Positions 15,101 through 58,211 of a stretch of DNA of 64,000 nt are shown here, one piece after another. The position numbers and the translations under genes were made by a program. This stretch comes from Gari tellinella. Taxonomy: Eukaryota; Mollusca; Bivalvia; Cardiida; Psammobiidae. The notes under the pieces were generated by a model. The model saw only the letters and a program-made list of their open reading frames with translations. It made no database searches and was not told the origin of the DNA. Position 1 is the first letter of the stretch, and every line of letters begins with the position of its first letter. The stretch covers positions 69,081,832 to 69,145,831 of the forward strand of contig OV277862.1 in the NCBI GenBank assembly GCA_922989275.2, in the 5' to 3' direction.

Positions 15101-18100
15101 TTTTCAAAGTTTAATATGGTTCAGCTGCTAGGGTGCTAATTAAGTTAGGATGCTAAGATTTAATCACAATATTAATGTACATGTATGTAGAAAGTTTAGT
15201 CCCATGCTTTATAATAGTTTTAGATGCTTTAGTACCTGTAAACAGATGTATATAAATAGACTGTATAATTCTCAGGAATATATTTATATGGGAGTTTACT
15301 GATTGAAAACTACTGATTTTTAGCTCATCTGAGCTAGCTCAGGGTGAGCTTTTGCAATCCTTGAATGTCCGTCGTGTGTCGTCCGTCGTGCGGCGTCAAC
15401 AATTTTAGTGTTTACACTCTAGAGGCTACAATATTTATCCAATCTTTCTCAAACTTGCTCAGATGATATATTGCCATAAGAGTTCGGATGAGTTCGATTA
15501 TGGTTGAAATCAGACAAATAGGTAATGAGTTATCTACCTTTGAATTGCTGAAAATGCCATTTTTAACAGTGTTTACACTCTAGAGGCATCAATATTTATC
15601 CAATCTTTCTAAAACTTGCCCAGATTGTATATGACCATAAGAGTTCAAATGAGTTTTATTTTGGTTGAAATCGGACAAATAGATCAAGAGTTATCTACCT
15701 TTGAACTGCTGAAAATGCCATATATAACGGTGTTTACATTCTAGAGTTCAAAATTTTTATCCAATCTATCTCAAACTTACTCAGATTGTATATTACTATA
15801 AGAGTTCAGATGAGTTCGATTATGGTTGAAATCAGTCTAATAGGTCGACAGTTATCTACCTTTGAATTGCTGAAAATGCCATATTTAAGGGTGTTTACAC
15901 TCGAGAGGCCACATTTTATCCAATCTTTCTCAAACTTACTCAGATTGTATATTACCATAAGACTTCAGATGAGTTCAATTATGGTTATAATCGGATCAAT
16001 AGGTCAAGATTTATCTACCTTTGAATTGCTGAAAATGATATATTTAACAGTGTTTACGGTCTAGAGGCCACAATATTTATCCAAGCTCTCTCAAACTTGC
16101 CCAGATTGTATAATGACCATAAGAGTTCGAAAAAGGGTGATTATAGTTGAAATAAGACAAATAGATCAAGAGTGATCTACCTTTGAATTGCTGAAAATGC
16201 CATATTTTACAGCGTTTACACTCTTGCAACTACAGCTTTCAATGGATTTTGATTATACTTGTACACAAAGTATATAGCTATACGTTCTCTAGGGAGTGCA
16301 ATTATTGTTGAAATCTAATCACTGTGGCAAAAGTTACCTGCCCATGATATACTTTGAAATGCTAGAAAAGGCTTCATTTCAGTATCGTTTAAGCTCTAGT
16401 TATCTGCTTTTGATGTACTCTTCTATACTAGAGTAGGTCGACAAACTTGAATGGATTTAGAATAAAATGGGTGAAATTCAAAGGTAAAGCTATCTGGCTT
16501 CATTACAAATGGTGAGCGATATCAGGGCCTTCAGGCCCTCTTGTTTATTAACCCTTCTCCAGCTATTAGCATATATTGGTGTTTTTGAAAACAGTGTAGA
16601 TCCAGATCAGACAGCTCTTACAAGATCTGTGTGCCAAAAATCTGCACTTTTTCCTGGGGAAAAATATCTTATTTTATTTAGCCATGGTAATATAGATCTT
16701 TGTGTGGCTCAATTTTATATAAATATGAAAATTCTGTAGGAAAAGGGTTCTGTTTAACCTTGACATTTAACAAAAATACCTGTAAGTTTTATCAAACTAA
16801 CAATTACTAAAATGTAAAATACCGGTACAGAGCCCCATTCAGGTAAGATATTTAAATACTTAAACTTCCTCATGTCTTGGTTTAGTGGCGATATTAGTGA
16901 GAAAATGTTGAGTAACCCACTTTTATCTGGAGCCTTGGGACCCCTCTTACGAAATGTTGTACGACAAAATTTATTATTGTCTTAAGTCAGATTGTAAAAT
17001 TTCAATTATTTTATTTCGCCGTCTAATCCTGTCTTGTGATATCTCTTTAGAATCGTCTTGAAAATTACATGTATTTTAAAGTTTTGATTTACGACCGGTT
17101 TTTCGTGCAACGTTTTCTAAGATGAGCCCATGATTGGTAAGAGTTATTTAGATTTAGTACTGTGATTTGTTAAGGGTTTTATGTTCTTCGAGAATGTGTC
17201 AGGAGAAGTACTTTTTTTAAACCCTTCGTGACCATAATGATATTGTAACATACAGTATAAGTCCATTTATAAGCCCCTCAGGGTGATTCAAAGCCCCAAA
17301 ATTTATTCAGGGTTTCAGTGCTTGACTCTTTGCAGTCCAATTCGAAACAGTAGTACCTTAATTAATTTGCAAACAGTTTGGATCCAGATGAGATTATCCA
17401 GTAATGCGGTGTCTTATCAGGACCAAAAGTGTTTGACTCTCTGATCATATTTTAAAAGAATGTTTTGAAAATTCTAAATGTAGAAAAAGTGGATGACAGA
17501 GTTACGAAAGTTCAAAGTTTTTAGTTAAATCTAGTGGTTTTGGATTCTTTTTTTGGCAGACATTTGGGGGGAGAATATTAGACGGTTGAATTTAAAAAAG
17601 GATATACAATTTCTTGCCATTTGCTTCCATTATAATTATTATCATCTGTGTCTGCTCTTATATCTAGAATTTGGCCTTTAACTCCATAGCATGTTCGTAG
17701 TATTGAATATAGGTTACCACTTAAAGCAGGTTGAAAGTAAAGCAGAAGTTGAAGCCTTAAGGTGCATTCTACTTTACTATTAGCCTGCCCTATTTATAGC
17801 TCCCGTCTGCTAGAATATACATGTAGATTTGTTTTCTTTGGTACATATTCATGACTGAATAAATTTGAACTACATGTATGTACAGAAGTGGGGGAATGAA
17901 TTAAATATGTAAAAATGTGTATGGAGTAAAGGGTTAAGGCATTTTGACCAAAGAAACTTTGATTAGAGTGTTGAGTAATTCCCACCTAGTTAGGGAAAAT
18001 ACTATGTTGACTATTTTTTTATGCCCCCGGCATCTGTAGATGCAGAGGCATATAGTAATCGTCCTGTCCATCCATCCGTCCGTCCGTTCGTAACAAGGTT

Positions 18101-21100
18101 AAGTAGATTTTACCCTTTCGTCAAGCATCAACACCGCTTACTCCAATGCTTGGATACTTATACAGTTGTTGCCTTGGACCATTCCCTATCCACCAATATC
18201 ACCCAACCTTGATTTTGACTGTGACCTTGACCTAATTTGGACTTAGAATATTTTGAATAGGCTGTTTCTTGATAACTAGATTTTACCGTTTCGTCTAGCA
18301 TCAACACTACTTACTAGTTACTACAATGCTTCAATACTTATACAGTTATTGCCATGGACCATTACCAACTGACCCATATTACCCAAGCTCAGTTTAACCT
18401 TGACCTAATTGGGACTTAGAAAATATTCAGAATATATTGTCAAGGATCCCACTGGGGGCATAAGTGTTTATTGAAGGTGCAGTCTTGTTTTTGTTTTGTT
18501 TTGGATACCAGGCATTACAGAGTCTAGAACTATTAATTGAATGTTTTACTGATAAATGTTGTATCATTGGCAATGTCAGGTTTGGACAGCACAAGTGATA
18601 GAGAGACAATAGAACAACTGAATAAAGAGATACAAGACCTTCAGAAACGGTTTGAGATTGAGAGAAAAGACATAGAAGAAAGTTACAGACTTGAGATTGC
18701 CACAGTGGAAGAGAGACATGACCAGGAAAAGAAAGAGCTCATGCTGCATATAGAACATGACAAGGTAAAATAAGGCCTCTCAAATCATTTCTTGTTTTGA
18801 AATTAAACTTCATTCTATTTCCATGGTCAAACATGTCCTAGCTGCCAATCAATGGAAAAATGATTATTATTTGATAAAGATTGTAGCTTGACCCTCCTCT
18901 TGCTGTTGGTATACTGGTATATTGAATATTGTTTAAAACAGTGTATGGCGCAGGCCAGACATAAATGATCCCTTGGTGACAATCTTTTTTGAAAACAGTG
19001 TAGACTCAGATCAGAACAATCCTTAAGGAGTTGTCTAATCAGGGTCTGCAGAATTTACTTATAGGATCTGATTGGCAAGAGTCTGTCGTACTCTTTCCAA
19101 TGGATAGGTAATCTTATTACATTGTTCTGTGTATTATTGTTAAGATGATAGATGTTCAAGGTGAGTTGAGAATGATATAATTATGAATATTCATTGAGAA
19201 GAGTCAATGAAGTGCAGCCCAGAGATCCAATTCAAAGTTTAAGAAATAATTTCTTTACTCCCAAGCCAGAAAATCAATTGATGCGTTAAATTGCAAGTTT
19301 AATGAGCTTTTTATTGGTCAATTGAGCAGAATGCTCAAATCTGACCAATCAACCCTGAGGTCAATTTCAGACCCATCTAAAATGCTTCATAACCAGGGGT
19401 TCAGACTTTCCAACTTTGCAGAAAGTAAAAATCTAGATCAAACGTTTGCTAAGAAATGAGTATCTGCTCAAGATATAGCTATAATAAGCACTAGTTTTGC
19501 CTGATCATTTTGGCATAGATACCCCTTTACCACCCTATGGTCAACTTTTGCAAACAATTTTGATCCAGATTAATCTTTGAAAAACTGGTGAGAAGTATAC
19601 TTGTCCTATGCAAACAGTGTAGATCCTGATCAGAGGGCTCCCTAAGGAGCCCTCCGATCAGGCCCTACACATTCATTTTTAAATACATGTATACTGTGAA
19701 AACCAACCCTTAATAGTCAAAATGGGCTAGACTTAGTTTCGAACTGGAATATTCATTTAAAGTTTCATGGATGAATGAATTAAAAGAAGTAAAACTGTTT
19801 GTCCAATTTTGTTGTGCAGAAAAATCTTGAGACTGAGTTCCAGAAGCTACAGGAGGAGGCGTTAGCTGAGCTAGCTAAAGACTTGCAGAACAGCTTTGCC
19901 CAGGAGAAAGAAGACATAGTACATAAACATGAGTCAGAGAAAAACCACATCAGACAGCTACACACTGACGAGATACAAGAAATCATAGACAGGTACGATA
20001 GTATAAGACTTATACAAGAAATCATAGACAGGTGGGATAGTATAATGCTAATACAAGAAATCATAGACAGGTAGGGTAGTATAAAGTTTATAAATACAAG
20101 AAATCATGAACAGATAGAATCATACAGTAAAATCCCTCTATTACTGCTACTATAAAGAAGGCTAACTGATTGATAAAAAGCAGGTGACAAAGGATTATAC
20201 AAGAAATCATAGACAGGTAGGATAGTAAAAGACTATTACAAAAAATCATAAACTGGTGGGATAGTATAAGGCTTATACAAGAAATCATAGACAGGTAGGA
20301 TAGTTTAAGGCTAATACAAGAAATCATAGACAGGTAGGATAGTATATAGCTAATACAAGAAATCATAAACTGTTGGGATTGTATAAGGCTAGTACAAGAA
20401 ATGATAAACTGTTGGGATAGTATAAGGCTTATACAAGATATCATAAACTCGTGGGATAGTATAAGGCTAATTCAAGAAATCATAAACTGGTGGGATAGTA
20501 TAAGGCTAATACAAGAAATCATAAACTCGTGGGATAGTATAAGGCTAGTACAAGAAATCATAAACTGTTGGGATAGTATAAGGCTTATACAAGATATCAT
20601 AAACTCGTGGGATAGTATAAGGCTAATTCAAGAAATCATAAACTGGTGGGATAGTATAAGGCTAATACAAGAAATCATAAACTCGTGGGATAGTATAAGG
20701 CTAATACAAGAAATCATAAACTCGTGGGATATTATAAGGCTAATACAAGATATCATAAACTCGTGGGATATTATAAGGCTAATACAAGAAATCATAAACT
20801 CGTGGGATATTATAAGGCTAATACAAGAAATCATAAACTCGTGGGATATTATAAGGCTAATACAAGAAATCATAAACTCATGGGATATTATAAGGCTAAT
20901 ACAAGATATCATAAACTCGTGGGATAGTATAAGGCTAATTCAAGAAATCATAAACTGTTGGGATATTATAAGGCTAATACAAGAAATCATAAACTCGTGG
21001 GATAGTATAAAAGTACCAAGTTATAGTCTACTTTCAGTCCAAATGACCGCTCAGCCGACTGTACATTCACTCCCCTGATCAATACAGGCTTATATAAGGC

Positions 21101-24100
21101 TAATACAAGAATTCATAAACTTGTGGGATAATATCAGCTTAATACAAGAAATCATAGACAGGTAGGATAGTATAAGGTTAACAAGAAATCATAAACTGGT
21201 GGGATACAAGATAACAAAGGTTTAAACATTTCATTTATATTTGTAATTAAGGTATCAAGTTGAGGGTGACCACAACCTGAAATCCAAGGTTAAAGAGCTA
21301 AAGGCAAGACACAAACAGGATAGAGAAGAACTGGAGAGTGCATTAGACGATTCTGAAGCTAGAATACAAGAGCTTGAAGAACTCAAGACAAAACTAGAGC
21401 GACAGAAAAATGTGCTCCATGAACAGGTAGTTCAACTTGAGGAACATAATTCCGAACTTGAACAACACAATAGAGAGCTACAGAAAAAATCTGTTCAGAT
21501 AGAAGAATCATTAAAAACTCATTTAGAAGACAGTGAAGAAAAGATGTTGAAACAGAAAAGTGAAATGGAAGGCATGCTTACTAGACATTTAGAGAATGTG
21601 TCTGATGTTGAAGGAAAGAAGCATGACCTAGAAAATAGGTTGAAGAAACAAATAGATGAGGCAGAAAGGAAACACAAAGAGGACATTCAGGAATTAACTA
21701 ACCAAGTGGAAGTGCTAACAGAGAAACTAAAAAATGACAAACAGAAATTCACCGAACAAATGGAGGAGCTTAAAGATAAACACAAAGATGAGGCACAGGG
21801 ATTAACCAAACAGGTAGAAGTATTCAAGGAAGATAAAAAGAAAGTACAAAAACATAAAGAACAGATTGAAGCCGAACTGAGACAACACAAAGAGGACAAG
21901 TTGGATCTGCTAAGTCAGATTGAGAATCAGAAGAGAGAATTAAGAGAGTTGAGTCAACAGATGGCCCAGATGGAACTAGAATTAGGTCAACAGAGGGAAG
22001 AGATGGAAGTGTCGTTTAGGCAGGAAAAACAAGAGTTACAACAGTTGTATGAAGTGAGGCTTAAAGAGCTTCAGGAGGCTGTGAAAGACAAGGAAAGAGA
22101 GAAGGCAGATATTCTGGCAGGGGTACGTATTGAAGACCAGGCTCCGAGGTTATAAAGCGTTTTAGTTGAGTCTGAGTGTGTTCCCAAGCATTTGATTGGT
22201 CAGATTTGAGCCTAGGCTCAAATCTGACCAATCAAATGCTTGGGAACGAGTTTAGACTCAGCTCAAATGCTTTATAACCTGGGAGCCAGAAATGTCTGTA
22301 TAAAAAAAGAGAATTGTAGAAGGACTGGTAAAACATTTGTGGCCCGACAGGGACTTAACCTCAAGGTCTCTGGCATTCTGTGCCAGCACTCTAACCACTG
22401 AATCTAAGCCATCTGGAATTTAATGAATTTCCACCAGTGACCTGTACCCTGGCGGGCAGTATTAGAGCATCATTTAGGTTCCTATGTATTCTCTTTCCTG
22501 TCTTTGGGACGTCCATTTTGTCCAAAGTTGGCAGAAAGGGAGGTAAATTTGAAAACCATAACTTTTCAAACAGTTTTGATCCAGATTAGGACCCACATTT
22601 GTGGACCCTGATCTGGATCCAAATTGTTTGACACTTAGATCAAAGTTCTGTAAACATGTGGGTGAAAACAATACATTTCTGAAGACCTTGAAACTGATGG
22701 AAGAGCACAAGAAAATGACTATTACCCCATAGATGTCCATTTTCAATGCCTTTAATTTTATTCCTCCCCTGAAGAAAAAAGTTCCACTTTACACATTCAT
22801 GAATATGCACCATGTAAAATAAGTTCTATGTCCTAGCAGAGATTACCCTAAAGCTTAAAGCAGGCTGAAAGTAAACCAGAATGCACCTTAAGGCACATTC
22901 CGCTTTACTTTCAACCTGCTTTAAGTGGTCACCTGTCTTCAAGACTAGAACCAGAATATGGGGTAAAGGGTTAAGCATGCAAAGAGTACAGGTTATGTAG
23001 GTCAAATGTTTTTTTTTTTCATGTACAGGATGGGAATGGTCTGGCTGGTGGGGATAAGGAGGAATACAACAGACTTGTGGCCAGACTAACAGAGGAAGCT
23101 GAGAGGAAGGCACGAAGAAATGTCACTGAAAACTTCAGCCAGAAGGAGAAAGATCTTGAAGATGACTTTGATACTAAGAAATCAGAGCTGAGTATGTCAT
23201 TCGATGAGATCTGATGTCATATGTTGTGAATTCAATATTGGGTTAATTAGTCAAATCGTATGTAACATGTATATACATCATTGACACACAGTGTACCTGT
23301 GAGCAGTACACTTTTCCCATGCAAACAGTGTAGACCCAGATCCAAAGAGCCCTCTGATCATGGTCTGCACTGTTTTCATTTTCCAATATATAGTAACCTT
23401 TTATGGTTTTAAGCTGTCATCTGTCTTTTATGCAGTCAATAAGCCTTGTTTATAGTGGTCATAATAGAGAGGTTTTACTGTATTTCCTTCATAATTAAAC
23501 AGCCCATGTGTTTGAGAGAGAAAAGACAGAACTGATGGAGAAGTATGAGGATCAAGTGCGCAGCTTGAGGGCGGAGTTAGACCGCCTACAGGGCAAGTTA
23601 GAGGAGGAGCGTGAGGCCCTGGCACAGAGATATGAGGATGAGAGAGAGGCCCTGGAGGAGCAACTTGCACAGCAGATAAAAGAGGAACTAGAGGTAGGTT
23701 ACAGTTTTATCTGTTCCCCTATAGACAAACATGCAAATATTCAACTGTGTTAAACATATTACCCCATAACCTATTTGTGGTTTTGAAAACAATTTGTCCA
23801 CTTACAGCAGGCTGAAAGTAAAGCTGAATGCGCCTTAAGGCGCATTCGGCTTTATTTTCAACATTCTTTAACTACAATCTGCTAGGATATAGAAACTATT
23901 CTTTTGGTAAGTGTTCATGATTGTATAAATTAGAATTATTTTCTCCAGCAGAGGAATAGATTTCAATGCGCTTAAAGATGCTTCTATGGGATAAAGGGTT
24001 AATGCAAATGGCTGCTTAAAGCAAGATAAAAATAAAGCAGAAAGCTCCAACAGGAGCTTTCTGCTTTATTTTCATCTTGCTTTTATCTGTTCCCAGTATT

Positions 24101-27100
24101 TAACACCATCAATGAATATCCATTTGCTTATGTAGATGAGATGGTAGAGGCATCCTGTTGACCTAATGTGCTTCTATAGAGGAAAGGATCAAATAGACTA
24201 GCTTCAGCAATGGAAAATCTTTTATTGATAAATGAGATAGTTGTAAGCTTTGTTCAAGGGTTAAGCATTTGATTTTATAACCCTGTAGACATAAGTAAGA
24301 GGGTATTGTTTTGGATTGGCTATTTCTTTGTCTGTTTGTCTATCCATAACTTTGGCCTTGGCCATAATGTTGATACTGCATGTATTTGAGACTTCATATT
24401 TAACATATGTACTCAATTCAAGACGTCGTTGAGGTCAGTACAACTTGGGTCCTGTTTGACAAAGATCAAGGTCATTTATAGGAACAGGATAAATTGAACT
24501 ACATATGATAGAGACTTCATATAAGGCATGTGTACTCCACTCAAGAAGTCCATTAAGCTCAATGTAAATTAAATCATGTCATATGAAGGTCAATGTCATT
24601 GAACCCATTACCCAATAGTTGTTTCTAGTTTTGAAAATAACTGACTACTCAAAGCAGGTTGAAAGTAAAGCAGAATGCACCTTAAAACACATTCTGCTTT
24701 ACTTTCAGCCGACTGGGTAAAGAGGAACTTTTTTCTTCAGGGGAGGAATAAATAAAAGGTTTAAAAAGGAGTAATTATGGGGTAATGGGTTAAAGGTCAT
24801 GGTCACATCCATAGGAATAGTGTTTCACAAACACATCTTGTTTAAATACTTTTTATTAATTATCTTGTTATATCTTTCCCTTTTTTGTCACAAGTAGACA
24901 TGTATACTCAGCAAAAATAGAAACTTTACATGTGATTCTGATGCGTATAATTCTGTCTACAAACACAATTTTGCAGAAAACTTATTGTCTTTGAAAACTT
25001 TGGATCAATGTCTGCATGTTCTCGACAATGGTGATGAAAAAAGTCCAAACGTCACGTCGTAATTTGACGTCAAAATGCATAGGGGTCGATTTCAAATTTC
25101 TCAGAGATGTGAACGTGTGCGCAAGATGTGTTTAAATTCATTTTCCAGTTTTATTTTTAGTGACTTTTTGCATAAAATCACTTCAGTAGCGTGCATGCCC
25201 AAAGTCACGTCTAATGCACGCAACACTCTGTCTCTGATGTGCCGTCTAATGACGTCATATGAGATGACATGCAATTTTCGTAATCGAGCATTTCTGAGGT
25301 CGTTGGTCGTGTCAATCTGGTAATAATTCCGCATCCGTCGCCAAGTTTAACCCATACATGCTCTATGGGTTTTAGATCAGGTGACACCGCAGCCCATGTC
25401 ATGACGTTGACATTATTCTGGGCCTTGTGCGTGCAGTTAAGATCTGCCAAGTATACGGTCTACGGGTACGGGTAGGACCGTGACGTTGCTTCAGACGATT
25501 CCTTATTGTCTCAGCAGTGATCCCAAACTGCCGAGAAGTAATCGTTGTTGGAATGAAACGGTTGCGTCGGTACGTTAACGTAAGAGTGCGATCGACTCTA
25601 CGTGACGTCAACGATCTCGGGCGATCCTGAACTTACCCCGTAACTCTGTAACGAGTAGTCAGCTTATGAATTGTCTACAATATGCGTCCAAAATGACGCG
25701 TAACATCAGTTACTGACGCGTACGCCGTAAACATGCCAAATGGTCTGATTTCTGTGATTTTCAGAAAGCTGTGGCATCTCTTTTTTCAAACGCAGAAGTT
25801 TACAATTTTGTTTTTTCGGTGTTTGGCTAAAGCCTGCGTGTGTCTGTTGCATTAGATAAACTTGAAATCAACGCTGATTAGGTCAACTCGACGTCAGTGC
25901 TAAATACCGGAAGTGGAAAGCGTGCTACGTCGTGCGCGGTACAACTGAACAATAGTGTGGCTCTGTATGGTCTTTATCGATTTCTCCATTATGAAATGTG
26001 CGTATATTTCATAAAACGTCATTAAAACATCGTTTAAACCGGCTTTGAAGAATGTAAAGTTTCTACTTTTGCTAAGTATAGTATTGCAGAATTCTTATAT
26101 TAGTTTAATATGAGTATAGCCTTAGAATGATAAACACTCTTTTTATCAGTCTAGTAGATGGCGTCGGAGGGTAAGACAAAGTAGATTTACCAAACGAAAT
26201 CAACAGGTAAAACATGTTGTCAAAGCACAGTCATATAAGTTGTTGCTGATCATGATAATATTGTACCACAGTGACTATTTTTGTTTCAATGTCACTTTGT
26301 CACAGAAATGTTACACAGAGCTCCAGATAAGGGTTTGTCAAAAACTAAAATCTATTTTCTGCTTTAAACCCTATAACTCATTAAAGAGACGATTCTAATG
26401 AGTAGTTAAACCTTATGATTTGGTTTTGAAATGAGCGAGAAAATGTTGGATTTGTTCAAGTTACTCTCTCTTATCTGGAGCCCTGAATATATATCTGATA
26501 TGATAGATGTATGCACAAATAACTCAGGTAAGAATTTGATTGAATTCTTTTCTTTGATTTTGATACATTTGAACACCACAGTCACCTTTTTTTAGCTCAC
26601 CTGAGCCATAGGCTCAAAGTGAGCTATTGGGATGGCCCTGTGTCCGGCGTCCGGCGTCGTGCGTCGTCCGTCGTCCGTCGTCCGTCGTCGTTAACAATTG
26701 CTTCAAATGACATCTCCTCATATACCGCTTGACAGATTTCAACCAAACTTTACAGAAATGTTCCTTGGGTCAAGCTCTTTCAAATTTGTTCAAAGAATTA
26801 AAAACAATGCAGAAAAAATAAGGAAATCTTTAAAAATCTTCTTGTCAGAAACTGCAAGAGCCAGAGCTTAGATATTTGGCACACAGCATCATCTATAGGT
26901 CCTCTATCAAGTTTGTTCAAATTATGTCCCTAGGGTCAAAATTGGCCCCGCCCCGGGGGTCACAGTTTTACATAGAGTTATATAGTGAAATTTTCAAACG
27001 TCTTCTTCTCTGAAACTAATATGGCTAGAGCATTGATACTCAGCATGGTGACACTTCTAGATGTCCTTTACATATTTTGTTCAAATGGTTCCGGTCGGTT

Positions 27101-42100: not shown

Positions 42101-44445
42101 TTTAAGCAACTATCTACAAGGATCTAGAAAATATTTCTTATGCTGAATATTCATGACTATATAAAGTGGAATTTATATTCTTTAGTGGAGGAATAAATAA
42201 GAGGTGTGAAAAGCATATTTATGGGGTAATGGGTTAAGAATTGATATTGATGCTGATTTTCAGCTGCTGGAGGCCACTACGAACTTCTCCAAGAGCCAGT
42301 CTGAGCACCAACAAGAGCTTCAACATTGGCAGGACAGGTGTAGCGGCATGGTAGGCCTGGACAAGTACACCAACCTACAGATAGACCTCGTACATAACCA
42401 AAGATCACTCAGAGAAATGCAGGAATGGGCAAAAGCAAAGGAGGATATGGCCAGTAAAAATTTCAAAGGTAAGGTGTTCTGATGTAGATAGTCAAAGGTA
42501 AGGTGTTCTGATGTAGATAGTCAAATGTAAGGTGTTCTGATGTAAATAGTCAAAGGTAAAAATGTGCTTTTTTACCCATTGGACTCTAGTGATATGTGTT
42601 TACTTCCTTTACATACAATGTACCTGATAGAAGTACACTTGACATAATTTATTGCAAACAGTGTAGATCTAGATCAAAATCAAAACTTAGCGAAAGTTTC
42701 TTCTTTGGTTGAGTATACGCTACATCATAGTAACATACAGCAAGGGGGGCATCATATGTGTCATAGAGACATGGTCGTGTATTTAGTTTTTAATGTAAAA
42801 TACAGATGGCTGCCTAAGAACAGGCTGAAAAGTAGAGTTGAAATCTCCCTAAAGCAGAGCTCTGATTTGCGTTTTGCAAATTTTAATTATTCACCTGTAA
42901 AGATGTAGAAAACATTTCCCATGACTTGTAAATCAGGACACGAGAGAGGCATGAAAAGGTATTTCTGTGAGGAAAAAGGGGAGAAATAGTATTTCAGTGA
43001 GAGAAAAGGTTAACAGCTCATATAATGTATGAAATGACATTTCTTAGAGTGTAAGTGTTATTAAATGAAAACTTATTCTGTTTCAACAGTGACTTCTGAC
43101 ATGCATCTGGATGAGGTGACAGACCTTGAGGGTCGTAAACAGTTCCTGGAGGACAAATTGAAGACCCTGCAGCTTCTGCTAGACAACCATGTCAAAAAGT
43201 TCAAAGATCAGGTACATACCCTAGTGATATATGTTTTTCATTCCAATTCAGATGCAATGCAATGAAATGTTATACAGCACTCCCTCTCTTCAACGACACC
43301 TAAAGGGAGACAAAGATTGTGTGTGTTGTTCGAAGGGAGTCGTTATAGGGAGGGAAAGTGGATTACATTTGCAAACAGCATGAATCCAGATCAGACGCCG
43401 CGTAACGCGGCGTCTGATCGGGATTCAAGCTGTTTGTCACTCGTCATTAAGGTTTCTCTGTCAGAATTTCCATTATGCAACTTTGAGAAAAAACAGTAGA
43501 GGACAATTTTAAGCATGCAGTATTGTAGCAGTTAAAGCGTACGACATAGTTGTCTTGTTTAGGGAACTGCGGCAAGGGTCGTTGTAAGGAGGGAGTCGTT
43601 GTTGAGAGGGCCGTTGTAGGGAGGGAACCCTGTAGATGGCAACAATGTCATGTAACAGGAATACAGTGCATAAACATTCTTCTATTCAATATAACCCTTT
43701 TTACACTTGTAACTATTTCAACACTAAGGAAAGTATTCTCCTAGCTTAGGAAGTCCTGAAAATAAGACATAGAAGGCTTTTCCAGAATTTTTCCAAAAGG
43801 GAAATTACAGCAGACCTTAAGGCACATTCTGCTTTACTTTCAGCCTGCTTTAGCTACAATCTGCTATTATCCTCTGAATCAAAGTTAAAATGTGGCTAAG
43901 CCACGATTTAACTGTGATTTTCATCAGGTAAGTTTGATTCAGAGAGTTTGATTTATTGAGATTCAACTGTTTATGATTATTCAAATGTTTTAACTCTTTC
44001 CCACATAGAAGCGCCTTTTAGCGCATTCAATTTATCCCTCCACTGAAGAAAAAAGTTCCAATTTATACAGTCACAAATATGTATCCGAAGAAATATTTTC
44101 TAAATTCTAGCAGATGATAGCTTAAAGCAGGCTTAAAGTAAAGCAAAATGTGCCTTAAGGCACATTCTGCTTTACTTTCAACCTGCTTTAAGTGGTCACC
44201 TAAATGGGCTATGGGGTAAAGGGTTGATATTAAAGTTGATATTATAAATATTACAGCGTGAGACTGCAGAGAGGAGGAACATGCTGGTTGTGAACCTGTA
44301 CAAGGAGAATGCCGACCTCATGGACTCTTTGGCCAATGTGGAGGAGCAGAAAAAGGATGCCGTGTTACGCTGTTACCGTCTAGAAGATCAGTGCAATGAA
44401 CTGCGCAGAGCCTTTAGGAAAATGACAAATCTGGCCATAACTTGA
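54..44445 (+). CDS. NIN: Ninein-family (NIN/NINL) centrosomal coiled-coil protein, 3' part, 23 exons
   Basis: Exons: 54-196, 2252-2392, 7006-7180, 7827-7943, 8398-8487, 10025-10211, 10910-10984, 18580-18764, 19820-19992, 21252-22122, 23029-23191, 23503-23693, 29208-29402, 31325-31480, 31988-32101, 32891-32989, 35640-35753, 37464-37589, 40410-40523, 41518-41586, 42264-42468, 43090-43211, 44257-44445. All joins are GT-AG with matching phases, giving 1337 residues plus TGA. The visible start and the following LAKEVDERHASMEK-type coiled coil match the region after the EF-hands of vertebrate ninein and ninein-like proteins, and almost all the rest is charged heptad coiled coil. Family knowledge: ninein proteins anchor microtubules at the centrosome and subdistal appendages. 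NIN versus NINL cannot be settled; invertebrates usually carry one ancestral member. The 5' exons are off the window. Phase consistency over 23 joins argues for a live gene. Confidence 0.9.
578..1545. repeat. Tandem pair of about 450-bp foldback elements
   Basis: Two copies (578-1036 and 1099-1545) share aatacac(a/g)ttaccagt starts, an inner stem around tttttggcggaaatag / tttccgccaaaaat, CRE-like TGACGTCA motifs, and aaaggcatataata ends. Within each copy tattatatgcctt and aaggcatataata are inverted. Each half can fold into a long hairpin. They diverge by scattered substitutions and small indels, so the duplication is not very recent. Confidence 0.75.
1556..1740. repeat. ATC/CAT-rich degenerate microsatellite
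   Basis: Irregular run of atc and cat triplets broken by ttt and agt variants. The apparent Met/Ile-rich reverse-strand ORF is a by-product of the triplet repeat. Confidence 0.75.
1737..2226 (+). mobile_element. Family A TTAA MITE with a second copy nested inside
   Basis: The outer copy (+) starts TTAA at 1737 and ends gtaatggg-TTAA at 2226. An inverted copy of the same family sits between TTAA 1844-1847 and TTAA 2091-2094, next to the outer copy's core hairpin. Removing 243 bp plus one TTAA restores the outer element, which documents a TTAA target duplication. Confidence 0.8.
2252..2392 (+). CDS. NIN: ninein-family exon 2
   Basis: The acceptor is attcag and the donor gtaagt. Its first base completes the split Lys codon from exon 1, and it ends with two bases of Leu. 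It encodes LAKEVDERHASMEK and flanking heptads, among the segments most similar to vertebrate ninein (LMASEVDDHHAAIE type), which fixes both family and frame. Confidence 0.9.
2598..2814 (+). mobile_element. Family A TTAA MITE
   Basis: Starts ttaacccttaacccctaacc and ends tggggtgatggattaa. The core hairpin has shrunk: most of both inner arms are missing. Confidence 0.7.
2815..3640. other. Intron sequence without recognised features
   Basis: AT-rich intronic DNA. Only a short (TCTG)n tract near 3120-3146 stands out. Confidence 0.6.
3660..3832 (-). mobile_element. Family A MITE, partial
   Basis: Contains the reverse-orientation tail (tatacagtgatgaatata), the core hairpin with imperfect tip, and a degraded ttatggggtaggtta end. 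Confidence 0.6.
3883..4110. mobile_element. Family I-like MITE relic
   Basis: Starts cagggctgctat and carries aatcctaagatttc, as in the better copies at 47969 and 56828, around a family A core hairpin (3985-4050). The right end (gagaaatggc) is degraded. Confidence 0.5.
5536..5646 (-). mobile_element. Family A MITE, partial
   Basis: Core hairpin and the ggctatggggtaaagggttaa end are present. Just left of it, 5480-5530 carries an extra half-hairpin, so this copy is rearranged. Confidence 0.6.
6473..6707 (-). mobile_element. Family A TTAA MITE
   Basis: TTAA-flanked at both ends (attaaccaattactcc to gtaatgggttaa). The right arm of the core hairpin is deleted. Confidence 0.7.
6756..6904 (-). mobile_element. 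Family A MITE, truncated
   Basis: Core hairpin with tip ctataacgtgc and a right end aaaggctataagataaaggg before TTAA. The left third is missing. Confidence 0.6.
7006..7180 (+). CDS. NIN: ninein-family exon 3
   Basis: The acceptor is ataacag and the donor gtaagt. Coiled coil with SVEKKYQEQLRGVQAELERE and a following QEEAKLRKQ stretch, matching the ninein segment KERIAALKNELRKERE in position and pattern. It ends in phase 0. Confidence 0.9.
7214..7340 (+). mobile_element. Family A MITE, left half
   Basis: Left end, core hairpin (cacctcaggtg tip) and the start of the tail (ctacgaactgctaggatat) are present; the right end is not recognisable. It begins 34 bp after the exon 3 donor. Confidence 0.65.
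7827..7943 (+). CDS. NIN: ninein-family exon 4
   Basis: 39 codons of coiled coil (EIGKLNSDVTDV to MVDIHRK). The acceptor is tctacag and the donor AAG|gttaac. The TTAA inside that donor is also the left edge of a family A transposon (see the separate finding). Confidence 0.9.
7945..8168 (+). mobile_element. Family A MITE abutting the exon 4 splice donor
   Basis: Its left TTAA occupies bases +2 to +5 of the exon 4 donor (AAG|g-TTAA-cc). The core hairpin tip is gtgccttaaggcac; the tail carries ggatatactgg and the catgactgta motif, with a degraded right end. Confidence 0.6.
8398..8487 (+). CDS. NIN: ninein-family exon 5
   Basis: 30 codons with acceptor acactag and donor gtaaga, phase 0 on both sides. 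It encodes FERAGIFTPEEHKYAKEK, a short non-heptad linker, then IERLEQENK heptads. It corresponds to the position of the NIN/NINL linker before the NDELQ(S/A)ELE segment. Confidence 0.85.
8635..8860 (-). mobile_element. Family A TTAA MITE
   Basis: Starts ttaacctattcccccataga and ends attatggggtaaaggattta (one TTAA mutated to TTTA). Core hairpin with tip gtgcttaaggcac. Confidence 0.7.
9713..9991 (-). mobile_element. Family A TTAA MITE with rearranged hairpin
   Basis: TTAA at both ends. The core is not a simple hairpin: after the left arm (gcagaatgcgcc) the sequence turns back early (tttcaacctgctttaagctt), continues ccatcttaaggctc, and repeats the right arm, as if a polymerase switched template at the stem. 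Confidence 0.75.
10025..10211 (+). CDS. NIN: ninein-family exon 6
   Basis: The acceptor is ataaaag, a weak purine-rich tract. The donor is G|gttagt, leaving one base. It encodes DHNDELRTELEE, equivalent to vertebrate DRNDELQAELE, then a Ser/Pro/Arg-rich non-coiled segment (SPNRRGLG, SLMSDYIKP). Ninein proteins also break their coiled coil here. Confidence 0.85.
10232..10368 (+). mobile_element. Family B MITE (TA-CAGTA ends), shortened
   Basis: Starts tacagtagaacccctctata and ends gaggggttctactgta, with half of the core hairpin missing. It directly abuts the acceptor-derived array before exon 7. Confidence 0.65.
10369..10909 (+). repeat. Degenerate tandem array of 3' splice-site copies
   Basis: Roughly 20 imperfect units of about 25-33 bp with consensus attacttttcacctctattt then aacag, running without a break into the true acceptor of exon 7 (cacctctctttaacag|ATTACT). 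Each unit therefore contains a pyrimidine tract, an AG, and the first exon bases. Several units keep an intact tttaacag; others have lost the G or gained A runs. Confidence 0.8.
10910..10984 (+). CDS. NIN: ninein-family exon 7
   Basis: Short acidic exon (YSDDDAQQLLERRLQQLPRD then DDDI). The acceptor is tttaacag and the donor A|gtgagt. It joins exon 6 as GAT (Asp) and exon 8 as AGT (Ser). The intron just before it is filled with degenerate copies of its own 3' splice site. Confidence 0.85.
11150..11216. repeat. Isolated family B-type core hairpin
   Basis: Arms aatgcagaaagctcc / ggagctttctacatta around a ta centre, without recognisable transposon ends. Confidence 0.55.
11230..12200. other. Intron sequence, only weak repeats
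   Basis: Contains low-similarity tracts rich in cagcctc and ccttgacc phrases (11700-11960), typical of old interspersed repeats, and a weak hairpin around 12050-12120. No gene seen. Confidence 0.5.
12216..12573. mobile_element. Family C MITE (TA-CAGTG ends)
   Basis: CAGTGGTCCCTCTCTACAAC start and CTG-TA end as an inverted repeat with TA on both sides. The core hairpin is gaatccagatcagacgt and its complement. Pogo/Tigger-like by the CAG...CTG termini and TA target; non-autonomous. Confidence 0.75.
13600..13843. mobile_element. Family D TTAA MITE
   Basis: Flanked by TTAA (13596-13599, 13844-13847). The inner hairpin is gcaaacagtgaagaccca ... ggctcc-gtaa-ggagcc. It matches copies at 39166 and 41646, which are 242-244 bp in length. 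Confidence 0.8.
13946..14143 (+). mobile_element. Family A MITE
   Basis: Left end taccccatagcctgtgtc, core hairpin with one arm mutated, tail with catgactatataaa. The right end is degraded. Confidence 0.65.
14542..14750. mobile_element. Family B MITE (TA-CAGTAAA ends)
   Basis: Nearly complete: tacagtaaatcctctctaca to atgttttactgta. The core hairpin is a near-perfect 33-bp stem with aagctcc-TTAA-ggagctt at the tip and TTAA at each base. Confidence 0.8.
15321..16548. repeat. Bivalve-type repeat with 161-bp internal tandem units
   Basis: Begins agctcatctgagc ... gtgagct with a (gtccgtcgt) stretch and ends cagggccttcaggccctctt. Between lie about five tandem units starting gtgtttacactctagagg at 15408, 15569, 15730, 15891 and 16050 (period 161, one 159). 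The unit phrase ttgctgaaaatgccat is highly conserved. Confidence 0.8.
16938..17129. mobile_element. Family E MITE relic (GGGCC-type ends)
   Basis: Contains tacgaaatgttgtacgacaa, aatcctgtcttgtgatatct and ttacgaccggtttt, all found in the better copies at 35783, 50667 and 60526. The central hairpin's right arm is missing. Confidence 0.6.
17678..17937 (+). mobile_element. Family A TTAA MITE
   Basis: TTAA at both ends (ttaactccatagc; gagtaaagggttaa), core hairpin degraded at the tip, tail with catgactgaataaattt. Confidence 0.65.
18020..18462. mobile_element. Repeat with TATGCCCCC inverted ends
   Basis: Bounded by tatgcccccggcatct and actgggggcata. It has a CCGTCCGT tract and two internal units of about 175 bp, each starting tagattttaccntttcgtc (18104 and 18280) and carrying tatacagttnttgccntgga. 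Looks like a non-autonomous element with internal tandem repeats. Confidence 0.7.
18580..18764 (+). CDS. NIN: ninein-family exon 8
   Basis: The acceptor is atgtcag and the donor AAG|gtaaaa. It encodes SLDSTSDRETIEQLNKEIQD and a following KRFEIERKDIEESYRLEI coiled coil. It follows a 7.6-kb intron; the 1-to-1 phase match supports direct joining to exon 7. Confidence 0.85.
19545..19779. mobile_element. Family D MITE, left end eroded
   Basis: Hairpin gatcagagggctcc-ctaa-ggagccctccgatca and right end tttcatggatgaatgaa before TTAA 19780-19783. It ends 37 bp before exon 9. Confidence 0.65.
19820..19992 (+). CDS. NIN: ninein-family exon 9
   Basis: The acceptor is tgtgcag. The annotated donor AG|gtacga leaves two bases that join to exon 10 as Arg. 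It is coiled coil ending HTDEIQEIIDR. The last 20 bases plus the donor are the first unit of a 39-bp tandem array that fills the next intron; donor-like copies 39 and 78 bases downstream would add 13 or 26 codons in frame. Confidence 0.85.
19973..21211 (+). repeat. 39-bp minisatellite seeded from the exon 9 end and its donor
   Basis: The first unit is the last 20 bases of exon 9 plus the donor (atacaagaaatcatagacag|gtacga...). Units repeat every 39 bp, about 28 in all, broken by other sequence at about 20125-20190 and 21008-21088. Outer units keep acag|gtagga or acag|gtggga; central units read actcgtggga or actgttggga and have lost the donor. The period is 13 codons, so a 225-codon ORF of an IQEIINSWDSIRL unit appears; I regard that as a by-product. 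Confidence 0.9.
21252..22122 (+). CDS. NIN: ninein-family exon 10 (large coiled-coil exon)
   Basis: At 871 bp this is by far the largest exon: about 290 residues of uninterrupted heptad coiled coil rich in Glu, Lys and Gln, with repeated patterns such as KHKEDIQELTNQVEVLTEKL and KHKDEAQGLTKQVEV that suggest internal duplication. The acceptor is aattaag and the donor gtacgt. It likely forms a long parallel dimeric rod. Confidence 0.9.
22140..22287. repeat. 148-bp near-perfect palindrome after exon 10
   Basis: Arms meet at gagcctaggctc, extend through tcccaagcatttgattggtc and its complement, and end ggctccgaggttataaagc / gctttataacctgggagcc. It begins 18 bp into the intron. The arms match better than any other inverted repeat here apart from 55019-55177. 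Confidence 0.85.
22340..22410 (-). repeat. tRNA-like sequence (tRNA pseudogene or SINE head)
   Basis: On the reverse strand it carries gattcagtggttagagtgc (box A-like), a ctggc/gccag five-pair stem with a seven-base loop, and ggttaagtccc (box B-like). The loop lacks the conserved T before the anticodon and the acceptor stem pairs poorly, so it is not a working tRNA. Confidence 0.4.
22717..22974 (-). mobile_element. Family A TTAA MITE
   Basis: Full-length reverse copy: tattaccccatagatgtcc to aatatggggtaaagggttaa, core tip caccttaaggcac. It ends 55 bp before exon 11. Confidence 0.75.
23029..23191 (+). CDS. NIN: ninein-family exon 11
   Basis: The acceptor is atgtacag after a T10 tract; the donor is A|gtatgt. 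It starts with a Gly-rich hinge (DGNGLAGGDKEEY), then charged coiled coil (RLTEEAERKARRN). The glycine stretch probably breaks the rod after exon 10. Confidence 0.88.
23410..23481 (+). mobile_element. Family B MITE, right end only
   Basis: Carries tttaagctgtcatctgtctt ... tagtggtcataatagagagg and ttttactgta. It lies 22 bp upstream of the exon 12 start. Confidence 0.65.
23503..23693 (+). CDS. NIN: ninein-family exon 12
   Basis: The acceptor is attaaacag and the donor gtaggt. It encodes very acidic/basic coiled coil with a repeated pattern, EREALAQRYEDEREALEEQL. A family B transposon end lies 22 bp upstream of the acceptor. Confidence 0.88.
23750..24002 (+). mobile_element. Family A TTAA MITE
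   Basis: TTAA to TTAA, 253 bp, core tip gcgccttaaggcgc with perfect inner pairing. An adjacent family B-type hairpin (24013-24088, tip ctccaacaggag) follows directly. Confidence 0.75.
24281..24850. repeat. Imperfect tandem repeat interrupted by a family A MITE
   Basis: Two related units (gagacttcatattta.. near 24390 and gagacttcatataagg.. near 24512) with aaggtcaatgtcattga phrases. A family A MITE (24598-24793) splits the tract, which resumes as aaggtcatggtcacatcc. Confidence 0.6.
24903..26080 (-). mobile_element. Internally deleted Tc1/mariner element
   Basis: 29-bp terminal inverted repeats (24903-24931 and 26052-26080) match at 27 of 29 positions, start TATACTCAGCAAAAATAG and have TA flanks. 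Reverse-strand fragments encode a Tc1 helix-turn-helix (SRQFGITAETIRNRLKQ, about 25470-25600), then RRPYTWQILT, then SPDLKPIEHVW (about 25340-25390), the usual SPDLNPIEH motif before the last catalytic acid. The DDE core between them is missing and frames are broken, so the copy cannot be autonomous. Confidence 0.85.
26594..27990. repeat. Bivalve-type AGCTCACCTGAGCC repeat with 320-bp internal units
   Basis: Starts agctcacctgagccatagg and a gtcgtccgtcgt tract, ends ctcaggtgagcgaaatatgc and a ccatggggctcttgttt tail. The unit phrase catagagttatatagtgaaa recurs at 26971, 27290 and 27611, about 320 bp apart. No coding capacity seen. Confidence 0.85.
28000..28920. other. Intron sequence without recognised features
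   Basis: AT-rich; two TGACGTCA-like motifs near 28250, otherwise no gene or repeat I can support. Confidence 0.5.
28922..29152 (+). mobile_element. Family A TTAA MITE
   Basis: TTAA at both ends. The hairpin tip is shortened to agaatgccgcattct, still perfectly paired. Confidence 0.75.
29208..29402 (+). CDS. NIN: ninein-family exon 13
   Basis: 65 codons, acceptor ctacag, donor gtatag. It encodes EELCEQMEEIKEAYDDAKRG and an EEIEDLKQSL coiled coil. Phase 0 at both ends. Confidence 0.88.
29434..30149 (+). mobile_element. Triple nest of TTAA elements
   Basis: The outer family A copy runs TTAA 29434 to TTAA 30149. At its central hairpin TTAA (29516-29519 / 29983-29986) sits a second family A copy in the same orientation. 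Inside that copy, at the TTAA beside its core (29566-29569 / 29839-29842), sits a third, unrelated 269-bp insert with weakly inverted agac...ctcc / ggaaaagtct ends. Each layer rejoins cleanly when the inner one and one TTAA are removed. Confidence 0.8.
30914..31087. repeat. Long inverted repeat (foldback)
   Basis: Arms ataagaaatagtacagccc / gggctgtactatttcttat with an inner stem gtcagccccaaaataa and a short ccttcgg loop. The right arm has two small insertions. Confidence 0.8.
31325..31480 (+). CDS. NIN: ninein-family exon 14
   Basis: 52 codons, acceptor tatttaag, donor gtaact, phase 0. It encodes AEKGQYELKETLEETKHALE and a following coiled coil ending QSGRDK. Confidence 0.85.
31496..31750 (+). 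mobile_element. Chimeric MITE: family B left end, family A body
   Basis: The left end reads acagtaaaaccctcactata and tagtgaccact (family B), but from gaccacttaaagcaggttg onward it is family A through to gtaatgggttaa. The switch lies beside the shared hairpin core. Confidence 0.7.
31988..32101 (+). CDS. NIN: ninein-family exon 15
   Basis: 38 codons, acceptor gttttag, donor gtaggt, phase 0. Coiled coil (EKEGLEKELGQLQQELAELQ). It is one of four exons in this half that are exactly 114 bp. Confidence 0.85.
32222..32463 (+). mobile_element. Family A MITE
   Basis: Left end eroded (cttagcccattatcctctag), left hairpin arm shortened, right end ggagtaaagggctaac. Confidence 0.65.
32654..32862 (-). mobile_element. 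Family A MITE
   Basis: Reverse copy with most of the right hairpin arm gone, ending ggctatggggtaattgg. It stops 28 bp before exon 16. Confidence 0.65.
32891..32989 (+). CDS. NIN: ninein-family exon 16
   Basis: 33 codons, acceptor tgttacag, donor gtacag, phase 0. It encodes VQVSTLTRENTDLTDQLQS, then a Pro-containing end (APLPEHAQ) that should interrupt the helix. Confidence 0.85.
33073..33432. mobile_element. Family C MITE
   Basis: TA-CAGTGCTTCCTCCC to gagggagcactg-TA. Inner hairpin gaatccagatcagatgccgc and its complement, with compensating changes relative to other copies. Confidence 0.78.
33978..34046. repeat. Family F core hairpin
   Basis: Arms aacagtttggttcctgatca / tgatcaggctccaaactgtt around gacgccggg-tta-cccggcgtc. 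Confidence 0.7.
34797..34933. repeat. Long inverted repeat with actcg loop
   Basis: gtgttaataatttattggat paired with atccaataaattatcaacac, inner stem gttttagaaaaagataaaaa. Same design as 36734-36908 and 38210-38362. Confidence 0.75.
35371..35577. mobile_element. Family B MITE
   Basis: tacagttaagcctctgtata to tagagaggttttacta with full core hairpin (agctcctttggagct tip). Ends 63 bp before exon 17. Confidence 0.78.
35640..35753 (+). CDS. NIN: ninein-family exon 17
   Basis: 38 codons, acceptor cctcacag, donor gtataa, phase 0. Leucine-rich heptads (ELTREKSELEERLVDTESKL). Confidence 0.85.
35783..36014. mobile_element. Family E MITE (GGGGCCC ends)
   Basis: ggggccctgtcttacgaaat to cataagacgggccc, with a central hairpin ctctttggaattgtctt / aagatgattccaaagag. 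Confidence 0.75.
36597..36908. repeat. Two adjacent inverted repeats
   Basis: 36597-36660 is built on tgatatcatcactacatgta with a TGACGTCACGTCA beside it. 36734-36908 pairs aatagaataatcaattcctt with its complement and has a stem gggttgttatctggttaaaa around an actcgtcctgtggactcg loop. Confidence 0.75.
37119..37286. mobile_element. Family E MITE, left end missing
   Basis: Near-perfect stem ctaatcctgtcttgtgacat ... atgtcacaagacaggattag, followed by gacttacgacaac and a degenerate atgaaactggtccc end. A separate hairpin (37053-37104, gtgtctggctcc / gagccagacac) precedes it. Confidence 0.75.
37464..37589 (+). CDS. NIN: ninein-family exon 18
   Basis: 42 codons. The start is taken at ttggtcag|TCA because that keeps phase 0; the AG four bases further on would break the frame, and the earlier aactaag runs into a stop. 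The donor is AAG|gtgaaa. Coiled coil (LLDTQDKLADTEAQLFQAEK). Confidence 0.8.
38210..38362. repeat. Long inverted repeat
   Basis: Arms agaatctcgcattcgtgctc / gagcactcttaggagatcct with inner attattcatcagttttaata. Third member of the group at 34797 and 36734; the upstream DNA carries acgtcatt and tgacgtta motifs. Confidence 0.7.
39112..39598 (+). mobile_element. Family A MITE interrupted by a family D MITE
   Basis: Outer family A TTAA 39112 to 39598. A 243-bp family D element (39166-39408) is bounded by TTAA 39162-39165 and 39409-39412 at the base of the outer core hairpin. The outer tip is atgcctttaggcat, a paired variant. Confidence 0.82.
39960..40392. mobile_element. Family B MITE interrupted by a family A MITE
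   Basis: Family B starts tacagtaaaacctctctatt and ends agagaggttttactgta. A family A copy (TTAA 40132-40135 to 40371-40374) is inserted in its right arm after tttttgtggtc. The element ends 18 bp before exon 19. Confidence 0.78.
40410..40523 (+). CDS. NIN: ninein-family exon 19
   Basis: 38 codons, acceptor ttttacag, donor gtaaac, phase 0. It encodes KKYEDVCKERDRSVGLAKSL and NKVNSGQNEDIEDK. A family B element ends 18 bp before the exon. Confidence 0.85.
40717..40989. repeat. Tandem duplication of 137 bp spanning two MITE halves
   Basis: Two copies start cttaaaattgaactggtttc at 40717 and 40854. They differ by a single A in an A run, so the duplication is recent. The unit fuses a family A tail to a family B hairpin arm. 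Confidence 0.85.
41518..41586 (+). CDS. NIN: ninein-family exon 20
   Basis: Smallest exon: 23 codons, KQLTKVLEQKKLLESQLQQI then SDK. The acceptor is attgtag and the donor AAG|gtaatg, phase 0. Supported by heptad pattern and by frame continuity on both sides. Confidence 0.75.
41646..41887. mobile_element. Family D TTAA MITE
   Basis: Bounded by TTAA 41642-41645 and 41888-41891. Strong hairpin ctgatcagagggctcctttc / gagccctctgatctgg. The right TTAA joins a family A tail (41892-41993), which is followed at a shared TTAA by another family A copy. Confidence 0.82.
41998..42233 (+). mobile_element. Family A TTAA MITE
   Basis: cccattaccccgaagc to atggggtaatggg between TTAA sites; left hairpin arm partly deleted. 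Ends 26 bp before exon 21. Confidence 0.75.
42264..42468 (+). CDS. NIN: ninein-family exon 21
   Basis: The acceptor is gattttcag and the donor G|gtaagg. It encodes LLEATTNFSKSQSEHQQELQ and HWQDRCSGMVGLDKYTNLQI, less regular than the rod, with Trp and Cys. The donor and the last bases are tandemly copied just downstream (29-bp unit). Confidence 0.85.
42462..42560 (+). repeat. 29-bp tandem repeat seeded from the exon 21 donor
   Basis: Unit tcaaag|gtaaggtgttctg with atgtagatag. GT donors lie at 42469 (true), 42498, 42527 and 42556. The 29-bp period shifts frame, and downstream donors would add a TGA, unlike the in-frame array after exon 9. Confidence 0.88.
43090..43211 (+). CDS. NIN: ninein-family exon 22
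   Basis: The acceptor is tttcaacag and the donor gtacat. It joins exon 21 as GTG (Val). It encodes TDLEGRKQFLEDKLKTLQLL and DNHVKKFKDQ, coiled coil. Confidence 0.85.
43275..43632. mobile_element. Family C MITE
   Basis: TA-CAGCACTCCCTCTCTTC to gtagggagggaaccctg-TA. Core hairpin gatcagacgccgcg-taa-cgcggcgtctgatc. Confidence 0.8.
43990..44224 (-). mobile_element. Family A TTAA MITE
   Basis: Reverse copy, ttaactctttcccacataga to gctatggggtaaagggtt; core tip gtgccttaaggcac. It ends 32 bp before the last coding exon. Confidence 0.75.
44257..44445 (+). CDS. NIN: ninein-family terminal coding exon
   Basis: The acceptor is tattacag. It encodes NMLVVNLYKENADLMDSLAN and a YRLEDQCNELRRAFRKMTN tail, then TGA. 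A closing short helix after the last coiled coil is typical of the family's C-terminus. An AATAAA at 45048-45053 is a candidate polyadenylation signal about 600 bp downstream. Confidence 0.88.
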   Translation, partial: RETAERRNMLVVNLYKENADLMDSLANVEEQKKDAVLRCYRLEDQCNELRRAFRKMTNLAIT

Positions 44446-57479: not shown

Positions 57480-58141
57480 GAGTAAGAACGGGAAAGAATA
57501 ACTTTTTCTCCAATGTACATGTATACTTGCGCTATGATGTTTTCTTGTTATTTCGAGATTTCCCTGACTATCCCGTCTAAATCTGCAAACAGAGTCTTTT
57601 TTAACACCTGTCTAATTGTAATATCAAAGAAAAACATTCAGCACATAATTATTGTCTGAGGAAGAACTATGGTTTACACTATGACACACACTGCACAGCA
57701 AAGCTGGCTACCTTGGCAGACACATTCCATTGCCCTTTCAGAATGTTGCAGAACTTTCCTCTTGAGCATATTTTTAGTCATCCGTGGTTTGGATTTTGGC
57801 ATTCTTGTCTTGTCGAGCACTGTGTGGCCTTCCAGTGCAGAAAATTTACTATGATAATCAATGCAGGTTTGACAAAGGTATTCAGAACAGTCCTCACAGT
57901 AGCCTTCAGCCTCCACCTGCTTTTCTGAGCTACATGGTTGACAGAATAATTTAGATTCTTCCTCCGAATCTTTATCTGATTTGCTATCCGCCGACTCAGC
58001 TGCATCTTTGGCCTTTACGTCTGTATCTGGTTTGATATCAACCGACTCGGAGGCATCGTTGGCTTTTAAGTCTGGTTTGCTATCCGCCGACTTAGAGGCA
58101 TCTTTGGCTTTTAAGACTGTATTTGATTTGCTATCGGCCAT
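57480..58141 (-). pseudogene. Decayed paralogue of the TRIM-like B-box gene
   Basis: The start codon at 58139-58141 opens a Lys/Asp/Ser-rich stretch with about three repeats of a KAKDASxSADSKPD type (residues 8-60), then B-box 1 (FCQPCSS, YCEDCSEYLCQTC) and the start of B-box 2 (CVCQGSQLCCAVC). A frame break follows and TAA ends the 155-codon ORF at 57674. Beyond it, other frames still read NHSSSDNNYVLNV and FDITIRQVLKKTLFADLD, matching the intact copy, with a further stop. The coiled coil and propeller are missing. Confidence 0.7.
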
Positions 58142-58211
58142 TTTGTTATCGTAAACTCACAATATCAGAGAATAAACGTCAGGACAGACGTACCGGTACC
58201 TGTGTCAGAAG

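Follow-up and report, generated by a model that had tools for sequence, protein, structure and literature searches.

The window considered here, a stretch of 64,000 nucleotides from contig 7 (OV277862.1) of the 1.6-Gb genome of the bivalve Gari tellinella, carries on its plus strand a coiled-coil gene that enters at the left end and, according to a simple exon finder, ends near 44.5 kb, its start and 5' part lying upstream of the window. Intron 9 of this gene is largely made up of a 39-bp minisatellite that begins inside the preceding exon and repeats that exon's splice donor, and it is this array that we describe. By homology of its predicted product along the coiled coil and the C terminus, the gene is ninein-like (NINL). 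The C-terminal 172 residues share 60% identity with ninein-like records of Mya arenaria, 59% with Dreissena, and 55% with Potamilus, with more matches in oysters, scallops, and a pearl oyster, 11 of the 358 candidate proteins reaching E ≤ 10 in this search; over coiled coil and C terminus together, the gene product and a ninein-like homologue are 51% identical over 1,148 aligned residues. Furthermore, the homologues' records carry EF-hand Pfam domains, and the nine named homologues all come from bivalves. Pfam gave nothing over its curated cut-off for the two separate parts of the model that were scanned, of 683 and 194 amino acids, three PDB searches gave nothing significant (best E 0.12), and the sequence flanking the exon 9 junction, used as a protein query, gave nothing at E ≤ 0.001 among 3,373 candidates.

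The exon finder was run twice, with splice matrices and with codon scores trained on the window. Exon 9 (19820..19992, plus strand, phase 0 to 2) was defined from its models together with the homologues: one run gave the end at 19992, and the other gave the start with an extended end. It is followed by intron 9 (19993..21251, plus strand; 1,259 nt, 96% of which is the 39-bp array) and by exon 10 (21252..22122, plus strand), taken from the exon-finder model. The numbers 9 and 10 follow the count of a preliminary description of this DNA, made by reading the sequence; a 51-bp exon at 12815–12865 is missing both from that count and from the exon-finder model with the extended end.

The array itself (19973..21203, plus strand) consists of 28 units, the last of 25 bp, followed by the broken start of a 29th at 21204, and Tandem Repeats Finder (TRF) calls it in two parts, at 19973–21010 and 21092–21206. 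Unit 1 is composed of the last 20 bp of exon 9 (19973–19992) and the first 19 bp of intron 9, so that the array begins with the exon end and its own 5' splice site, just as the preliminary description had it. A-type units (ATAGACAG|GT) make up seven of the 28 (units 1, 2, 3, 5, 7, 8, and 27) and lie only near the array edges; the B type (ATAAACT...) counts 21, including the degenerate unit 4, which fits neither type. Units 9–26 are all of the B type, and B units 6 and 28 stand among A units near the edges. Within this central block lies a higher-order repeat of four units (156 bp): the mean distance between central units has its minimum at lag 4 (0.045, versus 0.062–0.087 at lags 1–3 and 5–8), and a single base separates units 10–13 from units 14–17 (156 bp each), pointing to recent turnover. 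Minisatellites whose central part turns over typically show such a pattern of units.

Two interruptions break the array. The first, of about 68 bp (20122..20189), is an inserted dispersed repeat with similar copies (about 76–81%) near 23415, 30249, 35511, 47845, and 58632 and in loci sampled elsewhere in the genome; the second has approximate limits 21015..21092, and a search of the window and of the 20 loci sampled found no copy of it. When the genome was searched with the 39-bp repeat, all 13 matches scored lay at this locus, a number to be read as a lower bound. An open frame of 242 amino acids in the array was rejected as coding evidence, because a stop-free unit stays stop-free when repeated.

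Donor strength was expressed in bits, scored over nine positions with a donor matrix. At 8.0 bits, the native 5' splice site of exon 9 (19993..19994, CAG|GTACGA) ranks above 13 and below nine of the other 22 donors in the corrected model. The next two units hold copied donors of similar strength to the native site, at 20032..20033 (CAG|GTGGGA, 7.9 bits) and 20071..20072 (CAG|GTAGGG, 8.8 bits), whose use would add exactly 13 or 26 residues, open and in frame; the GT at all three positions, the length of the extensions, and the quality of the two neighbouring donors had been described correctly beforehand. Strong CAG|GT donors (7.9–8.8 bits) are kept in six of the 27 further units and not, as had been thought, in these two only: the other four, each CAG|GTAGGA with 8.6 bits, lie at 20217, 20295, and 20334 (20217..20335) and at 21162..21163, 90 nt 5' of exon 10. 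Moderate donors (CTG|GTGGGA, 5.9 bits) are found in four more units, at 20256, 20490, 20646, and 21199, while 11 units keep the GT and have lost the G at position −1 (1.6–2.6 bits) and six are without GT. TCGTGG is present in 10 units and TGTTGG in four, and the reported loss of donors from the central units holds for most of them but not for all. In the remaining introns of the model, with the two array-bearing ones excluded, 25 sites of at least 7.9 bits occur in 38,417 bases (0.65 per kb); six strong copies in 1,259 nt therefore make intron 9 unusually rich in competing donors. When donor 20071 is passed over, a TAG is met in frame at 20072–20074, and hence 20032 and 20071 are the only extra donors that would make protein. 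Use of the three strong copies from 20217 to 20334 would take in this TAG, and a stop also lies upstream of 21162; in addition, unit 3, 43 bp as cut, changes the phase.

The window sequence alone does not reveal which is older, the exon end or the array, and the exon half of unit 1 is identical to that of units 2, 3, 5, 7, 8, and 27 (0/20 differences), which would equally suit an array that existed first as an intronic minisatellite, the exon having later been extended into its first unit and the match at the boundary being secondary. The homologous proteins speak against this order. Across the exon 9 junction, TDEIQEIID|R|YQVEGD (codon split, phase 2), the model protein aligns without gaps in all 11 homologues, in which the terminal residues of exon 9 find counterparts in homologous positions and of similar kind, EIIDR facing, for instance, KIIDS, ALIQR, or AIIKS. 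An ungapped junction and counterpart residues in 11 of 11 homologues argue that the exon end is old and the array derived from it; by this protein comparison the exon end predates the array, which bears out the proposal that the array grew from the exon-intron junction. The reverse order was rejected on this alignment, and we regard it as very improbable. As an outgroup, a paralogue without the array was sought in the same genome and none was found among the 116 of 296 candidates scored, two matches being this gene's own exons.

The same alignment bears on the Rogers model, in which the intron itself would have originated when an exonic AGGT segment was duplicated in tandem. The unit does contain CAGGT, and the array accounts for nearly all of the intron, but the homologues are continuous across the junction, so that the 19 intronic base pairs of unit 1 were not coding earlier, and this intron half agrees with the start of exon 10 at 6 of 19 positions, close to the random mean of 5.2. 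With the junction ungapped and the intron half unlike exon 10, the duplicated segment does not appear wholly exonic, and a gain of this type was rejected as scarcely credible.

A second, smaller array in the same gene (42463..42559, plus strand; 29-bp unit, 3.3 copies by TRF) likewise copies a donor. It starts with the end of the exon 42264–42468 and its native donor at 42469 (AAG|GTAAGG), the top-scoring donor of the model, and carries GT copies at 42498, 42527, and 42556, the donor of the third unit being weakened to AAT|GTAAGG. The junction of this exon is also ungapped in the 11 homologues. Its unit length is not a multiple of 3, and a TGA stands in frame between the native donor and the first copy, so use of its copies would give a premature stop; frame is therefore not a condition of such growth.

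These observations bear directly on the idea that a coiled-coil protein gains tandem repeats from intronic DNA by this route, as the preliminary description had suggested. If the extra in-frame donors of intron 9 were used to produce functional coiled-coil isoforms of different length, the array would be a working source of protein repeats, and it fits this idea that 20032 and 20071 score within the range of the gene's donors, that the extensions they open are in frame, and that the unit length of 39 is a multiple of 3. Yet an insertion of 13 or 26 residues is found in none of the 11 homologues, the form spliced at 19993 outscores both extended forms against every one of them, a stop follows beyond 20071, and 13 residues would move the heptad register by one. 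Moreover, the out-of-frame sister array shows frame to be no rule of the process, and in amphioxus, where repeats across exon boundaries have been named mirages, the available text of the reports indicates that the copies apparently leave regular splicing undisturbed (PMC3087553, PMC3902484). The suggestion of a protein gaining repeats finds no support in these comparisons, and functional length isoforms seem to us rather doubtful.

For the decay of donors in the central units, two explanations had been offered, selection against extra donors and amplification of one mutated unit. Selection could be suspected from position +1, where more changes (5) are inferred than in any other column, from the seven changes inferred at donor positions −1 to +2 against 3.5 expected, and from the weakened donor in the third unit of the 42463 array. 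This excess is not significant, as four of 39 equal-sized windows are as high, and for positions −2 to +5 as many as 11 of 39 do as well; besides, sequence exchange among the units makes a tree of them untrustworthy, and six strong and four moderate copies persist, two of the strong ones adjoining the native site. We consider selection unlikely, though somewhat less so than functional isoforms, and amplification of a mutated unit is sufficient to account for the pattern.

In our view, with a probability of roughly four in five, the minisatellite arose by tandem duplication over a pre-existing exon-intron junction and later grew within the intron, the native donor being mostly used. A 39-bp piece straddling the junction of the ninein-like gene would have been duplicated in tandem, as the layout of the array and the direction given by the homologues suggest, and the array would then have grown within the intron by slippage or unequal exchange. 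Judging from the order of the units, a unit type with an already decayed donor probably expanded repeatedly and so homogenised the centre, and older units with intact donors would have been left near the edges. The normal mRNA is, most likely, still made through the native donor at 19993, a view supported by the mirage precedents, whose available descriptions have regular splicing kept (PMC3087553, PMC3902484). Donors 20032 and 20071 may act at a low or moderate rate, giving isoforms with 13 or 26 additional residues, and later copies would yield mRNAs with premature stops. A bolder extension, which we hold to be improbable, would see the array as a live tuner, in which the copy number and donor state of each allele set the mixture of normal, +13, +26, and premature-stop mRNAs, in a gene prone to such events, its second donor (42469) having been multiplied independently.

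Several points weigh against duplication over an existing junction with continued use of the native donor. With the array subtracted, intron 9 measures about 67 nt (19 + 48), less than every other intron of the model, the smallest of which has 311 nt, and this leaves the state of the intron before the array poorly accounted for. The native donor, with its 8.0 bits, is outscored by 20071 (8.8 bits) and by four other copies (8.6 bits), and since it is not the strongest by the matrix, its dominance rests on the homologues and the precedents. Of the two exon-finder runs, one picked donor 20071, and the other picked 19993 yet joined it to an incorrect following exon. Among the 11 homologues, two are Mya records, two come from different Saccostrea species, and two are near-copies of the Argopecten protein, so that fewer lineages are represented than their number implies. 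Finally, two of 23 model donors are followed within 400 bp by a sequence closely resembling the donor region, compared with 5.5% of 3,000 random positions, a frequency not clearly above background; none of the acceptors tested in the same way had such a copy.

As to how often such arrays occur, among the TRF arrays with units of 12–200 bp in the window, a repeated strong donor is present only in these two. For 17 arrays, the chance that at least two lie across the 3' end of an exon was P 0.017 (20,000 placements), a value that overstates the surprise, as one of the two arrays is the starting finding itself. The screen also covered 190,020 bases of the same genome that surround 20 kinase exons (20 of 138 kinase matches), a sample too small for a rate, and gave no convincing donor-repeating array there; candidates at loci L012 and L026 (three rows) were dismissed, the open frames upstream of them, 17 and 9 codons long, being judged non-exons.

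Some further features of the locus deserve mention. In exon 10, 94 of 290 residues (runs of 35 and 58, plus one) are without counterpart in the 11 homologues and, as far as the alignment tells, are coding growth of the coiled coil right after the array-bearing intron. The 51-bp exon 12815–12865 (KTLKKDLAKLGITYGKG), whose limits were read by hand, matches IRTLKKELAKLGIPYGKG in Mya record P0002 and is absent from Mya record P0001; it is perhaps a conserved cassette exon. Larger tandem arrays occupy other introns at 15407–16224 (161 bp × 5.1) and 26823–27887 (321 bp × 3.3), away from exon ends, and at 40717–40995 a 136-bp unit is tandemly duplicated with 99% matches, apparently recently. On the minus strand, long open frames at 51059–52513 and 57674–58156 presumably resemble B-box/NHL (TRIM-like) proteins.

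The locus adds a mollusc gene to the boundary minisatellites known as mirages, with the direction fixed by homologous proteins as exon first and array later. Within a single gene it provides two naturally occurring arrays of competing donors, of which one starts in frame and the other does not, and so a convenient natural experiment on how the spliceosome selects between donors that are nearly identical. What is thought possible is left unchanged by the finding.

By its unit size, its position over an exon boundary, and its splice signals, the array is a structure of the type called "mirage". As described in the available text of the amphioxus reports, mirages are repeats across an exon boundary with units of 10 to 160 bp and unstable length, they carry AG/GT in many copies but not in all, regular splicing is apparently kept, and concerted evolution acts within the cluster with the boundary excluded; similar repeats in PGBD5 are named together with them (PMC3087553, PMC3902484). 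In the Gari gene, too, a minisatellite unit lies over the exon boundary with intronic copies beside the authentic one, the units are of minisatellite size (39 bp × 28 and 29 bp × 3.3), the authentic copy stands at one end, its exon end backed by protein comparison with 11 of 11 homologues, and splice signals are present in part of the copies (six strong and four moderate of 27). In contrast to amphioxus, the host is a mollusc and not a cephalochordate, 28 units nearly fill the intron, and two arrays occur in one gene. A literature search for mollusc or bivalve repeats at splice donors in introns gave no mollusc case, which is no proof of absence in print, and no such case appears in the available text of PMC12783039 or PMC3862624.

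A human counterpart is the 31-bp variable number tandem repeat of CBS, c.1444_1467+7(16_21), with 16 to 21 copies (PMC2630376). By its name it runs from 24 coding bases to intron base +7 and thus, like the array described here, joins an exon end to its donor; as far as the available text goes, it differs in that its unit of 31 bp varies in copy number between people, whereas ours is of 39 bp, a multiple of 3, and is known from one assembly. Intron gain by tandem AGGT duplication, proposed by Rogers in 1989 and represented by ATP2A1 and by SPOG_01682 of fission yeast (PMC4974935), shares with our array the tandem copies with AGGT; in the available account, however, an exonic piece is duplicated and a new intron made, whereas in the Gari gene the intron most likely pre-existed. 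The array is thus a good new example of a structure already described in amphioxus and human.

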